Shown here: positions 1 to 36,156 of the stretch, in pieces
Layout: the number at the start of each line of letters is the position of its first letter
Numbering within the stretch: the stretch's first letter is position 1
Source: Patescibacteria group bacterium
GTDB lineage: Bacteria; Patescibacteriota; Microgenomatia; UBA10105; UBA927
Assembly (NCBI GenBank): GCA_023379025.1
Contig: JAMCTH010000004.1
Location: forward strand, 83,740 to 128,197
Direction: 5' to 3'
Length of the DNA stretch: 44,458 nt
Made by a program: the position numbers and the translations under genes
The notes under the pieces: generated by a model
What the model was told of the DNA's origin: nothing
The model's database searches: none
The model's input: the letters and a program-made list of their open reading frames with translations, nothing else

Positions 1-390
1 GCCGATAAGTCCTATCCCATAGCCCTCTTTTGCCGCCATCCCGACCAGATTATTCATGAACCCAACCCCTGGTATTCTTTCCAGTTTCTTTTGGTCATTG
101 AGATTTGCGATTTGTGACTTGAGGAGTTTTGCTGCGAGCACTATTCCTGTCCCGTCCGGGAGCGCTATATCAGCCTGATTCAGAAGTTCACCAAACCAAG
201 GACAGCGCCGGGCATACACCACTTGCTCGGGGTTAGGAGTAACGATCGTGAGGATGGTTGTGCTTTTTTGTTGATTTCTGACGACGGGTTTTGGGTGATT
301 GAAAAGGAACTTTTGAATATACTCCAGGATTTCTTTTTTGGAAGAATTTGTAAAGGATATTCCCAGTATTTTTACCGCATGAAGGCTCAT
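1..390 (-). CDS. WecG/TagA/CpsF family glycosyltransferase (GT26), 3' end cut by window edge
   Basis: Manual minus-strand translation MSLHAVKILGISFTNSSKKEILEYI...TPNPEQVVYARRCPWFGELLNQADIALPDGTGIVLAAKLLKSQIANLNDQKKLERIPGVGF...; 'LPDGTGIVLAAK..RIPG' is typical of the family. Not in the supplied ORF track. Confidence 0.85.
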   Translation of the reverse strand, partial: MSLHAVKILGISFTNSSKKEILEYIQKFLFNHPKPVVRNQQKSTTILTIVTPNPEQVVYARRCPWFGELLNQADIALPDGTGIVLAAKLLKSQIANLNDQKKLERIPGVGFMNNLVGMAAKEGYGIGLIG

Positions 391-4134: not shown

Positions 4135-4866
4135 ATGAACGTTCTCGAAAATGTTGCAGTCAACTCAGCGCTGGAACCACTTGGCAGGGTAGAGATTGGG
4201 CAACTCCGCAGATTAGGAGAGGATCTCGACGCTCTCTATGCGACTGCTCTGCCGCTTGGCGCGGATGCGATCCTGACGGTTGGATCTCCTCGCGATAAGT
4301 GGCCGGAATTTGGAAGTCTCGTTCTCGCCGCTCTCTATAATAATGCCGAAATTGTCGTTCTCGGAAATGGACAACCCTTAGCACCAGAAGTTGCAACGGC
4401 TACGAGCATATACAACAGTTATGTTACATATTTTAGTGATAAGACGCCCGACTTCCTTGTGGCTGCAGATCGAAACCTCTTTGATATCATGCTCCTTCCG
4501 GATATGCACCTAAGAGCTGATGAGGCAACATGGAGCGACCTCATGCAGAAAACAGCATATAGGCTCGCACTTATGGCGTCTCGATTGCGTCATTTTGACG
4601 GAATCATAGCGATAAGCGAACCAAAAGAAAAAAATGGTGTGACAATTAGCAGAATACTCGAAGAAAATATTCGGCTTTCTGCATTATTTCTCCATGTTCA
4701 TCATCCTCACCCACCGGAAATGCATCAAGATTGGTTCATCTTCAGTAATCCAGATCCTGCCGTTGTAGAAAGGGCATTAGATCATCCTGAGATACTATTA
4801 ACGAATGCCGGCATGCAAGTGTATTCACCATATTCTCAAGAATTCATTTTTACACCTGAAGGATAG
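4135..4866 (+). CDS. Hypothetical protein, 243 aa
   Basis: Long ORF; upstream TTGACA-16 nt-TATACT promoter; no recognised family. Confidence 0.7.
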   Translation: MNVLENVAVNSALEPLGRVEIGQLRRLGEDLDALYATALPLGADAILTVGSPRDKWPEFGSLVLAALYNNAEIVVLGNGQPLAPEVATATSIYNSYVTYFSDKTPDFLVAADRNLFDIMLLPDMHLRADEATWSDLMQKTAYRLALMASRLRHFDGIIAISEPKEKNGVTISRILEENIRLSALFLHVHHPHPPEMHQDWFIFSNPDPAVVERALDHPEILLTNAGMQVYSPYSQEFIFTPEG

Positions 4867-12701: not shown

Positions 12702-12789
12702 GAACATGCGCTGACTTGTGTACTGGAGAATATAAATTTACATGTGATTTGGTCATTGGGATTTGTGATTTATCTATAGCTTATAGTTC

Positions 12790-26871: not shown

Positions 26872-26900
26872 GCTTCCAGGGTCGGACCCTGAAGCCTATA
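26872..26900. repeat. REP-like palindrome copy A
   Basis: GCTTCCAGGGTCGGACCCTGAAGCCTATA. Confidence 0.9.
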
Positions 26901-26978
26901 ATCCGATCATGGACTTAAAACTAAAATTTTGTAAACTATATAACTGCATTTTCCCACAGGGAATGAGAAAATGAAAAT

Positions 26979-27638
26979 ATGCCGGGCAAAAATGTCGTAA
27001 AAACATATATAGAAAACGGCTATTATCATCTCTACAATCGTGGGGTGAGACAATCTCCCATCTTTCTACACAATCCGGATTATGCCTATTTTTTATATCT
27101 TCTGAACTCTTATCTGGCACCTGAGCATGAAACCGATCCGAAGACAGGTCTATTGAACCCAATGTATCGCGGAGGCGAAGTTAAATTACTCTGTTACTGT
27201 CTTATGCCAAACCACTTTCATCTTCTTATAAAACAACTGTCCAAAAATGGAATGACACGACTCACACGCCAACTGTTCACCTCGTACGCCATGCATATCA
27301 ATATGAGATATCATCTAAAAGGCAGTTTATTTCAAGGAAAACTTCGGGCCGTACTTATTGAAAGTGAACCTTATCTCCTTCATCTCAGCAGATACATTCA
27401 TACCAACCCAAAACCATTACTCCAAAAAGCTGCACCGTTATCATCATATAGCTTTTCTAGTTACCCAAATTATTTGGGCATTCTGAATAGCTCCTGGATA
27501 CATGCAGATGAAATTCTTTCTTTATTTGAAACGGACGGAGCAAGAATATCACGCGCTTCCGAGAGGTATCAAAATTTTGTTGAACGAGAAGATATTGATA
27601 GCATCTCTGTTTTGAAGGATCTCATACTCGAATCTTGA
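26979..27638 (+). CDS. REP-associated tyrosine transposase / Y1 (IS200-like) transposase
   Basis: GYYHLYNRGVRQ, YCLMPNHFHLLIKQ (HUH), LLHLSRYIHTNP (candidate catalytic Tyr). Confidence 0.92.
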   Translation: MPGKNVVKTYIENGYYHLYNRGVRQSPIFLHNPDYAYFLYLLNSYLAPEHETDPKTGLLNPMYRGGEVKLLCYCLMPNHFHLLIKQLSKNGMTRLTRQLFTSYAMHINMRYHLKGSLFQGKLRAVLIESEPYLLHLSRYIHTNPKPLLQKAAPLSSYSFSSYPNYLGILNSSWIHADEILSLFETDGARISRASERYQNFVEREDIDSISVLKDLILES

Positions 27639-27659
27639 GAGATGAGCAGCAAGGATCTA

Positions 27660-27688
27660 GCTTCCAGGGTCGGACCCTGAAGCCTATA
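27660..27688. repeat. REP-like palindrome copy B
   Basis: Identical 29 nt to copy A; ends 1 nt before the lepA ORF. Confidence 0.9.
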
Positions 27689-27689
27689 G

Positions 27690-29714
27690 TTAAATGTGTT
27701 TGAGGACGGCAAAAAATGCGGATTGTGGAATTGCAACTTTACCGACCATCTTCATCCGGGCTTTTCCTTTCTTTTGAGCTTCGAGAAGTTTGTCTTTCCG
27801 GGTTCGATCACCGCCGTAAAGCTTTTGTATGACGTCCTTCCGGAACGACTTGACGTCTGCCCGGGCGATCACCTGGCCGCCGATTGCCGCCTGGACCGGG
27901 ATCTGAAATTGAGCGCGGGGAATGACCGCGGCAAGCCGTTCTACGATCTCACGGCTCCGCCGCCCGGCTTCTGATGCAGTCATGAGGAAGCTCAGCGCAT
28001 CGACCTTTTCCTTATTGACCAGAATGTCTACCTTGACGAGGCTGACCGGCTGGTAGTCGAAAAACGCATAATCCAGGCTCGCGTAGCCCTCTGTAGCGGC
28101 CTTTAAACGATCAAAGAAGTCGATGATCATCTCTGAAAGGGGTATGCTATATGTTAGCTTCACCTGGTCCCCGAGATAGCTCATATCAAGATAGACCCCC
28201 CGTTTTTCCTGAGAAAGCTGCATGACTGCACCGACATACTGCTTTGGGCTAAAAATTGTGACCTTCATGACCGGCTCCTCTACCGATTCAACCTGAGACG
28301 GGTCCGGATACTCGGCGGCAGACTGGATAGAAAAAGAATTAGAAAATGGTTCTCGGATGTTGGAAATTGGTAATGGAGGTTGGAAATCAGAAATTTGATC
28401 CCCGCTTTTATCCATTTTCAAATTTCTATCAACTAATTGCTCATTTTCAAATTTCATCTTTGATCTTATTGTCAATCTGTACTCTACACTGGGTGCGGTC
28501 GCGATCATCGAAAGCCCGAATTCCCGAAATATCCGCTCCTGGACGATTTCCGCGTGGAGAAGACCTAAAAATCCGCAGTGGAAGCCGTTGCCGAGCGCGA
28601 GCGAGGAAATAGGCCGGAAGGTGAATGCGCTGTCCGCAAGCCTGAGTTTTTCCATGGCATCGCGGGCGGACGAAATATCGTCGCTTGAGAGCGGGAAAAG
28701 GCCCAGGAATACCATGGGCTTGGGCTCCTGATAACCGGGGAGCGGAACTGCTAGGTCTTTTGTATTATTTGTGATTTGTGATTTGGGATTTGGGATTTCA
28801 ACGGAAGTGATCGTATCCCCGACTTTTGCCATCCGCGCATCCTTGAGACCTGTGGCGATATAGCCGACTTCTCCGGTGTTGATATGGTCCGATCTGGTCA
28901 TCCGGGGAGTAAAATACCCTACTTCTATCGGAGTAATTCCCGCACCGGAGGCCATGAAATGCAATCGGAGAGATGGATCAAAATCTATACTTCCATCTAC
29001 TACCCGTACAAATACGATCACGCCTTTATGCGTATCATACTGCGAGGAAAAAACGAGGGCCCGTAATTGTGCGGGGATAGAGCCTCCCGGCGCAGGTATA
29101 CGGGTTACGATCGAATCTAGCAACTCAGGGATATGGGTGCCAAGCTTTGCCGAAATCGTCAGAATGTCCTCTTTCTGAAATCCGAGGCTAACAAGCTGCC
29201 CGGACGTTTCCTCTACCCTGGCATTTGGAAGGTCAATCTTATTGATGACCGGAATGATGACCAGATTATGCTCCTCTGCAAGGTGGAGGTTGGCAAGCGT
29301 CTGCGCCTGGACACCCTGGGTCGCATCGACCACAAGGATGGCCCCTTCACATGCCGCAAGCGAACGGCTCACCTCGTAGGAGAAATCAACATGCCCCGGA
29401 GTATCAATGAGATTCAAAACAAATTCCTGTTTTGAATCTGAAAATCCCAAATCTGAAGCTCCAAATCCCAATCTATTTGGATTTTTTGTGATTTGGGCAT
29501 TGGGATTTGGGATTTGATAGATCATCCGTACCGGCGCAAGTTTGATTGTGATCCCCCGCTCGCGCTCGATGGGGTTGCTGTCAAGCATCTGCTCGGTCAT
29601 ATCGCGCCGGGCAACCGTCCCCGTCGCCTCAAGGAGCCGGTCTGCAAGTGTGGACTTGCCGTGGTCGATATGAGCAATGATCGCAAAATTTCTGATGTGG
29701 TCCCGGCGCAGCAT
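27690..29714 (-). CDS. lepA: Elongation factor 4 (LepA) with three repeat-derived insertions
   Basis: IRNFAIIAHIDHGKSTLADRLLE, NLIDTPGHVDFSYEV, GLFPLSSDD, GYASLDYAFFDYQ. Confidence 0.96.
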   Translation of the reverse strand: MLRRDHIRNFAIIAHIDHGKSTLADRLLEATGTVARRDMTEQMLDSNPIERERGITIKLAPVRMIYQIPNPNAQITKNPNRLGFGASDLGFSDSKQEFVLNLIDTPGHVDFSYEVSRSLAACEGAILVVDATQGVQAQTLANLHLAEEHNLVIIPVINKIDLPNARVEETSGQLVSLGFQKEDILTISAKLGTHIPELLDSIVTRIPAPGGSIPAQLRALVFSSQYDTHKGVIVFVRVVDGSIDFDPSLRLHFMASGAGITPIEVGYFTPRMTRSDHINTGEVGYIATGLKDARMAKVGDTITSVEIPNPKSQITNNTKDLAVPLPGYQEPKPMVFLGLFPLSSDDISSARDAMEKLRLADSAFTFRPISSLALGNGFHCGFLGLLHAEIVQERIFREFGLSMIATAPSVEYRLTIRSKMKFENEQLVDRNLKMDKSGDQISDFQPPLPISNIREPFSNSFSIQSAAEYPDPSQVESVEEPVMKVTIFSPKQYVGAVMQLSQEKRGVYLDMSYLGDQVKLTYSIPLSEMIIDFFDRLKAATEGYASLDYAFFDYQPVSLVKVDILVNKEKVDALSFLMTASEAGRRSREIVERLAAVIPRAQFQIPVQAAIGGQVIARADVKSFRKDVIQKLYGGDRTRKDKLLEAQKKGKARMKMVGKVAIPQSAFFAVLKHI

Positions 29715-32618: not shown

Positions 32619-32637
32619 GGCTTCAGGGTCGGACCCT
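32619..32637. repeat. Partial REP-like palindrome copy C
   Basis: GGCTTCAGGGTCGGACCCT. Confidence 0.75.
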
Positions 32638-32665
32638 CGATCCCGTTCAAGGGCTTTCGCGGAAA

Positions 32666-34127: not shown

Positions 34128-34156
34128 TATAGGCTTCAGGGTCGGACCCTGGAAGC
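34128..34156. repeat. REP-like palindrome copy D (inverted relative to A/B)
   Basis: TATAGGCTTCAGGGTCGGACCCTGGAAGC; reverse complement of A with one central change; supplies the last base of the argS stop codon. Confidence 0.88.
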
Positions 34157-36156
34157 TACATCTGCTCGAGTGTTTCGATCCCCAAAAGATAGAGCCCGTT
34201 TTTGAGGACCTGAGCAGTGGCCGCAGTGAGCAACAGACGTAGCGTCATAGTGTCAGAAGGTGTCATTGTATCAGAGTTTTTCTTTGATACCCTGACACCT
34301 TGATACGTTGATGCCTTTCCTGTATCTCTGAGGATCGAGTGTTTGGCATAAAACAGGTTATACGCCTGGCCAAGGGAGAAGAGATACGTGCAGATCGTGC
34401 TCGGCGACAGGGTTTTGGCCGCATCGGCGACAACGTCCGGATAAAATACAAGAAGTCTTGCTATCGCGCGCTCCTCCGGATTAAGAAACACGCGGTCATA
34501 GTGAATTTCTTGTGATTTGGTCATTGGGATTTGAGATTTACGCAAGACGCTGCGCGCTCTTGCGTACGTATACTGGAGATACGGTCCGGAGTCACCTTCG
34601 AAGGAAACGGATTCTCCCAGATCAAAAGCGATTTCGGATTGTGGCGATACCTTAAGGAAAGAATATTTTACAGCCGCAACAGCTGCCTTATCGGCGATCA
34701 TATCTTGTTCCTCTTTTGTATAGTTTGAATTACTTTTTTGTAGAATGGTATATATTTCTTTTTTAGCTTCATCGAGGAGCCATTCGCCTAACACTACCTG
34801 CCCGGTACGGCTGCTCATCTTTCCATGCTTCAACTTCACCCACCCATAGATATAATGCTGTTGTTGATCTTTTTGAATTCCCAATAGCTCCTCTACTTTA
34901 AATGTAACCTTAAAAAAGCTCGCCTGTTCGGGACCAACTACATGAATGAGCTTGTCCAGATGACCAAATTCGGTAAATTCTGCAGGCGCTAGCGCAAGTT
35001 CTTTAGCCTCGTAGGTCGGTAGTCCCAGGCTATTGACAAACACCCGCGTGTCCAACCCATAAGGTTTGCCATAAAAGATAATTGCCCCTTCACTTTCCAT
35101 AAGCACTTTTTTCTTGACCGCTTCTCGCGCGCTGTCCACACCGGCCAAACACTCACTCTCAAAGTAATATCGATCAAAGTGAGAGCCAACACGCTTGTAG
35201 ATCGTTTCGAAATAATCAAGACTCCATTGCCTGGTTTCCTTCCAGAGATCATAGATTGTGCCCACAGCATCTTTATTTCCCTTCACGAGGCTAATATAGT
35301 CAAATGATCCCGCTTCAATCCCCTTCTCACGGGCAAAGCGCTGCGCTGATGCATAAATAAGAGCGTTATAGTCTACTATTTGCTCTTTTGCTTTCGGATC
35401 TTCCTCAAACGCGGTAGACCCGGCAGCATATGCCTTTCCTAGAAATTCGACTTTTTCTTTGACGGTTTTTGTTCGAATCGTTGGGATTTGAGATTTGAAG
35501 CTTGGGATTTGCATAAGCCCATACAGGGCTTTTGCTATATGCATGCCGACATCACCTTCATAATTTACTCTGATGACCTGGCTTCCCCAGGCCTCGAGCA
35601 GACGGATAAGTGATTCGGCAGTCGTGATATTGCGGAGGTGCCCGATATGAAAGGATTTGTGCGTATTCGGATGGGCATACTCGACCATAATCTTCTTCTT
35701 TTTAACTTGTTTATCCTGCGTGTCAACGAAGGATCGCGTACCATAGGCCTCACCGTCTTTTATCACTCTGACGATCGTCCTGCTAAGCGCAGCTTCGGTA
35801 AAAAAGATGTTTATGAACCCCGGCGGTACCACGTCAATGTGATCAATATCCTGGAGTAGTAAACTTACGGTCTTTTGTTGTGATATCTTCTGATCTTGAT
35901 TACTCCTATTCAGACCTTGATGTCCAGGCTTGGTCGTTGAGATTTGAGATTTGAGATTTGTAGAAACCTGTAGTGCTATATCCATCGGAGACTTTTTGAG
36001 CTGTTTTGAAAGCCGGAGAGCAATATTTGTAGTATAGTCACCATGTTTCGGATCATCGGAAATTTCGACCTCCGGCACAACATCTGGCACACCAAGGTCA
36101 GTAAGAACGGACTGGAGGAGGAAAGAGATCGCATGTTTCATAGTATGCAGCCTCAA
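34156..36156 (-). CDS. argS: Arginyl-tRNA synthetase with repeat-derived insertions
   Basis: VEYAHPNTHKSFHIGHLRNITTAESL, GWVKLKHGKMSSRTGQVV, TAQVLKNGLYLLGIETLEQM. Confidence 0.96.
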   Translation of the reverse strand: MRLHTMKHAISFLLQSVLTDLGVPDVVPEVEISDDPKHGDYTTNIALRLSKQLKKSPMDIALQVSTNLKSQISTTKPGHQGLNRSNQDQKISQQKTVSLLLQDIDHIDVVPPGFINIFFTEAALSRTIVRVIKDGEAYGTRSFVDTQDKQVKKKKIMVEYAHPNTHKSFHIGHLRNITTAESLIRLLEAWGSQVIRVNYEGDVGMHIAKALYGLMQIPSFKSQIPTIRTKTVKEKVEFLGKAYAAGSTAFEEDPKAKEQIVDYNALIYASAQRFAREKGIEAGSFDYISLVKGNKDAVGTIYDLWKETRQWSLDYFETIYKRVGSHFDRYYFESECLAGVDSAREAVKKKVLMESEGAIIFYGKPYGLDTRVFVNSLGLPTYEAKELALAPAEFTEFGHLDKLIHVVGPEQASFFKVTFKVEELLGIQKDQQQHYIYGWVKLKHGKMSSRTGQVVLGEWLLDEAKKEIYTILQKSNSNYTKEEQDMIADKAAVAAVKYSFLKVSPQSEIAFDLGESVSFEGDSGPYLQYTYARARSVLRKSQIPMTKSQEIHYDRVFLNPEERAIARLLVFYPDVVADAAKTLSPSTICTYLFSLGQAYNLFYAKHSILRDTGKASTYQGVRVSKKNSDTMTPSDTMTLRLLLTAATAQVLKNGLYLLGIETLEQM

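Follow-up and report, generated by a model that had tools for sequence, protein, structure and literature searches.

We analysed a window of 44,458 nucleotides, the whole stretch of DNA under study, from a patescibacterial genome of 1.11 Mb in 12 contigs. Statistics on this source genome are based on 365 kb of stretches and on whole-genome pattern searches. The gene encoding arginyl-tRNA synthetase lies within the window and carries four repeat islands, all on the minus strand:

34156..36156, minus strand: argS, arginyl-tRNA synthetase, 666 aa, the host gene, an open ORF.
35932..35959, minus strand: argS island 1, [AAATCTC][AAATCTC][AAATCTC][AACGACC]; peptide TNLKSQISTT; codon phase 2.
35483..35510, minus strand: argS island 2, [AAATCCC][AAGCTTC][AAATCTC][AAATCCC]; peptide QIPSFKSQIP; codon phase 1.
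34512..34539, minus strand: argS island 3, [AAATCTC][AAATCCC][AATGACC][AAATCAC]; peptide KSQIPMTKSQ; codon phase 0.
About 34250..34312, minus strand: argS island 4, an inverted octamer element, GTATCAAG GTGTCAGG GTATCAAA - loop - CTGATACA ATGACACC TTCTGACAC.

The island-bearing ArgRS has the N-terminal, catalytic and DALR domains of the family (Pfam PF00750, PF05746, PF03485), undamaged HIGH and KMSSR motifs, and a match to the PDB ArgRS 2zue (E 2.6e-45). An AlphaFold model of the protein (mean pLDDT 85.7) has low-confidence linkers at islands 3 and 4, at residue 144 and where island 1 ends, whereas island 2 is predicted to be flanked by two confident helices.

The sequence-only reading had placed four islands in the open frame of argS and had assigned three of them to a KSQI-type family common with lepA. 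Both points hold, with refined coordinates for the word runs: islands 1-3 have 28 nt each, exactly four degenerate AAATCCC-type heptamers, and lepA has two heptamer islands. The codon positions that this reading proposed to check cover all three phases in argS. Since 7 is coprime with 3, a heptamer array without stops encodes the same cyclic peptide in every frame; in keeping with this, the three heptamer islands of argS start in phases 2, 1 and 0. The description of the fourth island as an imperfect inverted repeat is supported by its DNA fold (z -4.7, better than 200/200 shuffles). The one single-arm heptamer island that was folded has no structure relative to shuffles (z 0.2), so the term is valid for argS island 4 only. 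The proposed division into two families survives as two distinct word sets, but not as two separate kinds of repeat, because the architecture is common to both.

Further islands were found in lepA and elsewhere in the window. One of them is complete, and matches over its full length R1, a covariance model built from the first element family of another genome of the CPR, described below:

27690..29714, minus strand: lepA (EF4), host gene; Pfam PF06421, PF00009.
29441..29517, minus strand: complete heptamer hairpin of 77 nt, in frame in lepA, 4 + 4 words; R1 full length, E 1.3e-5.
28771..28798, minus strand: second lepA island, [AAATCCC][AAATCCC][AAATCAC][AAATCAC].
12744..12771, minus strand: four-word arm, [AAATCAC][AAATCCC][AATGACC][AAATCAC], with no spanning ORF of at least 90 aa.
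93..120, minus strand: four-word arm, in frame in a WecG/TagA-like glycosyltransferase gene (named by eye).

The lepA hairpin has 12 terminal pairs and folds as DNA better than 200/200 shuffles (z -4.6); its completeness had been missed in the sequence-only reading. A second arm in the glycosyltransferase gene lies just beyond the window edge. In the genome stretches that we read, 16 of the 22 AAATCCC-type arms have exactly four words, and arms inside long ORFs almost always have AAATCCC on the sense strand. Among the four antisense arms in long ORFs, two are right arms of complete hairpins, one just upstream of an rpsD-like start and the other within an rluD-like gene, and the remaining two are unresolved or in doubtful ORFs. 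Host genes of in-frame copies, named by eye, include sufC-, WecG/TagA-, coaD-, glycosyltransferase- and rluD-like genes. Many copies of the source genome sit inside essential coding genes. Many copies of the element occupy intergenic gaps near start or stop codons. The window also contains an octamer island of the CTCTTCCG type (~946-977), in frame in an mreB-like gene (593-1648) with a peptide of about ATRGRAEERGKE, and, at the contig end (44295-44453), a 9-nt periodic array whose plus strand encodes collagen-like Gly-X-Y repeats.

A chance origin of the islands is excluded. The 365 kb contain 12 islands of local period 7, 14 of period 8 and 7 of period 9, for 0-1 in shuffles; the excess is smaller at period 9 than at periods 7 and 8. 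The profile of 50 kb of E. coli is flat, as in shuffles. Islands of periods 7 and 8 in the source genome belong to several word families. Runs of AAATCCC-type words number 15 in 365 kb and 0 in ten order-2 shuffles, and the whole-genome pattern search gave 23 matches against 0 with a reversed control. Among relatives, one genome (G001, L175-L192) has 26 period-9 islands in 360 kb, plus 15 of period 7.

The architecture of the element is seen in a CPR genome (G073) with about 35 copies of ~125 nt. The plan of these copies starts with an arm of four words whose CCAA cores hardly vary; a conserved stem, AACAAAATCC, and a loop come next, and then the mirror image of the arm, with TTGG cores. Consensus pairing involves cores of 4-5 bp with 3-nt bubbles between them; complementarity of these three-base spacers is not above chance (9/66 for 10.8 expected), and compensatory covariation in the arms is hardly present, with one pair. 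Support for the hairpin comes from conserved complementary cores rather than covariation, because the cores are nearly invariant and the spacers unpaired. The plan is identical in a second family of this genome, with CAAT-type cores, and remains unchanged in the AATTATC, CATATAC and CAGCNNN families, which lack G-tracts. Word positions shift between G073 copies, and copies within one genome are 73-89% alike. Element length varies from ~125 nt there to 77 nt in lepA, and the three heptamer islands of argS are single arms of 28 nt. Searches against Rfam returned no known RNA family for the element: the window gave tRNAs only, and the matches of the second G073 family were merely noise from miRNA-precursor hairpins that fell far short of the cut-offs. 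A different dispersed repeat of ~110 nt (TGGCGCGGCGGATGCCCCGAGAACATCC...; L207 1037-1165), common to G073 and its congener G133, is not heptameric.

The same words are dispersed across phyla. The exact 20-mer GATTTGGTCATTGGGATTTG, which has the word order of argS island 3 and is contained in it, was found in one-per-species genomes at 56 loci of at least eight phyla. Its hosts include Deltaproteobacteria, Methylomirabilota, Chloroflexota, Acidobacteria, Verrucomicrobia, Planctomycetes (Phycisphaerales), Actinobacteria (Acidimicrobiia), Auribacterota and CPR. Near copies number 1-72 per genome in 15 genomes (0 with the reversed control), and islands are present in CP070770.1, a 3.4-Mb single-contig chromosome of another phylum. 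An inverted arm of at least two words lies downstream of the 20-mer at 28/59 loci and upstream at 0/59; the modal arm at these loci has four words (29/59). R1 gave full-length matches in several phyla, with E down to 1e-20, elements in 41 of 116 CPR genomes, and no match in 50 kb of E. coli. In the source genome it recovered the lepA hairpin, the insertion in the rluD-like gene, the copy near rpsD, and others. These E-values are rough, and cross-phylum loci were picked by word combination, so that one arm fits the model partly by construction. Several 20-mer loci without a clear second arm (e.g. L072, L074, L079, L103, L116) fall below the R1 threshold, and a single arm alone therefore rarely gives a match. 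At one Zambryskibacteria locus, an mnmA-like gene (by eye) has an in-frame KSQ-type arm (L113 4801-4820), and a second full element lies at the same locus (4263-4382).

Comparison of relatives showed that certain loops are hot for insertion. The 17 period-7 islands present in 18 argS genes of the family are confined to five sites, at about residues 69-74, 144, 217, 542-552 and 613-631 of the source ArgRS, four of which coincide with islands of the source gene. The same genes have one island of period 8, six of period 9, and none at periods 4-6 or 10-13. The words are unrelated between relatives (CAGCTGT, TGGACAA, GGAATCA, AAATCCC), several islands are hairpins, and site 4 has 3-4 residues in several relatives. 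Inserts conserved among distant ArgRS homologs would have refuted the idea of a spreading element; we found instead the same loops, filled with unrelated words or empty. Orthologs of lepA have 13 period-7 islands, which cluster chiefly around residues 75-97 and 313 and also occur at 183, 251, 426 and 460; one additional match was masked sequence.

Empty sites were also observed between genomes of one genus. The query that revealed the G073 element found no copy in G133, and six orthologous sites there comprise three that are empty, two with a CAAT-family hairpin and one with other sequence. No target-site duplication or clean junction could be resolved between these genomes, because orthologous sites are too diverged (only ~78% identical in the closest pair). 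Similarly, we caught no recent transposition, because copies within a genome are only 73-89% alike. We could not connect the element with any transposase or reverse transcriptase. RAYT/Y1 transposases were considered as mobilisers and rejected: five genomes gave 15 Y1_Tnp matches, and heptamer arms do not adjoin them. The 260 nt on each side of the located Y1 ORFs contain no period-7 array, although one match had no located ORF and for another the located ORF was not the gene. These Y1/RAYT-like genes are flanked by palindromes of their own. In the window, such a gene (26979-27638) lies between identical palindromes GCTTCCAGGGTCGGACCCTGAAGCC (window 26872-27688), two more of which are found at 32619-32647 and at 34132-34160, the latter at the 3' end of argS; the source genome has five further Y1_Tnp matches. 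Together, the palindromes and the Y1 gene form a REP-RAYT-like system that is distinct from the heptamer elements.

Our results suggest that the islands are probably insertions of a short, non-autonomous, dispersed DNA hairpin element, or of its single arms, resembling Rickettsia palindromic elements (RPE) in behaviour. This interpretation draws on the observed dispersal, architecture, in-frame position, hot loops, empty sites and phylum distribution. It agrees with the sequence-only reading that a spreading DNA element, and not protein-specific evolution, produced the islands, as indicated by the same words at unlinked loci, their three codon phases, identical 20-mers across phyla, lineage-specific amplification and empty orthologous sites. 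That reading took the spreading unit to be a KSQI-coding tandem; the spread at the DNA level stands, but what spreads is a hairpin element, whole or as a single arm.

A full copy is a hairpin. Its first arm usually has four words of 7 nt; a loop follows, with or without an inner stem, and then a second, inverted arm of about four words. The core of the words is fixed, CCAA in one genome and CAA in the source genome, the spacers vary, and the inverted arm has the complementary core. Octamer-word families follow the same plan as heptamer families. In the proposed mechanism, an unidentified copying process, blind to the reading frame and by our inference transposition-like, would place new copies at other positions of the genome; loss of one arm would be frequent. 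Because the usual words are stop-free in all three frames and encode hydrophilic peptides in the AAATCCC sense, selection would leave copies within genes mostly in a single orientation and nowhere but in permissive loops at the protein surface. By inference, in-gene copies are near neutral, and families are carried between phyla by horizontal transfer.

Other explanations may be considered, and we regard slippage, in-place rewriting and selected function as weaker than that of a dispersed element. The islands could be microsatellites with a unit of 7 or 8 nt that started from a seed present by chance, grew where they stand by local replication slippage and then decayed. The dominance of periods 7 and 8 and the near-perfect tandems in relatives' argS, such as (CAGCTGT)n and (TGGACAA)n, are what slippage would leave. 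Yet it is unlikely to be the answer: the length of the arms is typically four words (16/22 here and 29/59 elsewhere), unlinked loci and other phyla have the non-uniform order AAATCCC AATGACC AAATC in common, and slippage cannot make inverted second arms with a conserved inner stem. Concerted evolution is slightly harder to dismiss, though still improbable. Old hairpins would be fixed in place while gene conversion or template switching between copies rewrites their words across the genome, so that sites only seem hot. Words do change position between copies, argS and lepA sites are common across genera with unrelated words, and two of the six orthologous intergenic G073/G133 sites have the same plan with a different word family; hairpins of different families at one site could thus be an old hairpin rewritten in place. 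This does not account for empty sites (the 3-4 aa at argS site 4 in several relatives and the three in G133), and insertion-tolerant loops are expected to be struck repeatedly anyway.

A selected function of the nucleic acid, such as a transcription end signal, mRNA stability or a G-quadruplex, with coding copies tolerated by chance, seems very unlikely to us. The many intergenic copies near start and stop codons are compatible with it, and Xanthomonas GGGAATC arrays have been studied as G-quadruplexes (PMC4692102). However, AATGACC, AAATCAC and similar words interrupt G-tracts, the AATTATC, CATATAC and CAGCNNN families keep the plan without any, many copies of the source genome are within essential coding genes, and no Rfam family matches. 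Since G-tracts are absent from most of the word families, we reject G-quadruplex function as an account of the element in general. Finally, nearly all genomes concerned are metagenome assemblies, which raises the question of assembly or binning artefacts; this is hardly credible when argS and lepA stay open despite islands in many independent genomes, and when islands also occur in the single-contig chromosome CP070770.1.

If the dispersed-element reading is correct, it explains odd KSQI-, LSAV- and DNGQW-like peptides in core proteins, reveals insertion-tolerant loops of ArgRS and EF4, and warns that such insertions mislead alignments and annotation. It also raises the question of which enzyme spreads heptamer hairpins. 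More speculatively, and with little confidence, one may imagine a pan-bacterial superfamily of mobile hairpins with one plan and free words, in which a conserved unidentified enzyme reads the seven-base rhythm and the core, and writes or copies arms word by word. As words are free between families and the plan is shared, such an enzyme would read rhythm and core, not one sequence.

We found no description of a heptamer hairpin element in a literature search made mostly without subscription journals, and nothing relevant for the sequence GGGATTTGGGATTTG. The STRR heptamers of Cyanobacteria are degenerate heptanucleotide tandems, some within functional genes; to our knowledge, no hairpin plan is known for them. 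REP/REPIN with RAYT are also short, dispersed, non-autonomous hairpins, and the source genome has RAYT-like genes with palindromes, but these genes adjoin their own palindromes and not heptamer arms. The TAACTGA repeats of Beggiatoaceae, Cyanobacteria and Bacteroidetes are dispersed heptamers of one sequence in distant phyla, for which horizontal transfer is suspected without a mechanism (MacGregor 2015, PMC4679880). Unlike heptamer hairpins, they are direct, with almost no inverted pairs, and mainly upstream of start codons (PMC4679880).

RPE, described from Rickettsia, are palindromic, dispersed, ~105-146 nt long, tolerated in frame in conserved protein genes, and have a contiguous terminal inverted repeat of ~12 bp (Ogata 2000, PMC2229807). 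The heptamer elements share the in-frame insertion in conserved genes (four islands in argS, two in lepA, plus the sufC-, coaD-, rluD- and glycosyltransferase-like genes named by eye). They differ in having arms of four words with non-complementary spacers instead of the contiguous repeat, lepA alone having 12 terminal pairs, and in their many word families with one plan in many phyla.

Arrays of GGGAATC in Xanthomonas and of GGGGA(C/T)T in Nostoc have a 7-nt unit with fixed and variable positions (GGGANTN), most often in four units. About 90% of them are intergenic, and the published description takes them for simple repeats that may form G-quadruplexes; Xanthomonas has 70-75 convergent inverted pairs per genome, and prominent repeats are at different genes in two close species (PMC4692102). 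Heptamer elements have the same four-unit mode and inverted pairs. GGGATTT fits GGGANTN on the antisense strand, whereas AATGACC and other word families do not, and instead of four uninterrupted G-tracts the arms of argS and lepA have interrupted ones. The description treats the arrays neither as an element with an inner stem and a loop nor as one of many word families, and does not recognise them as insertions within the frame of essential genes. No Xanthomonas sequence was compared, but the likeness in plan (modal four units, convergent pairs, different genes in sister species) suggests that these arrays may be of the same class as heptamer hairpins. Rickettsia coding palindromes and Xanthomonas heptamer arrays would then be joined to a widespread class that has been largely overlooked in uncultured bacteria.
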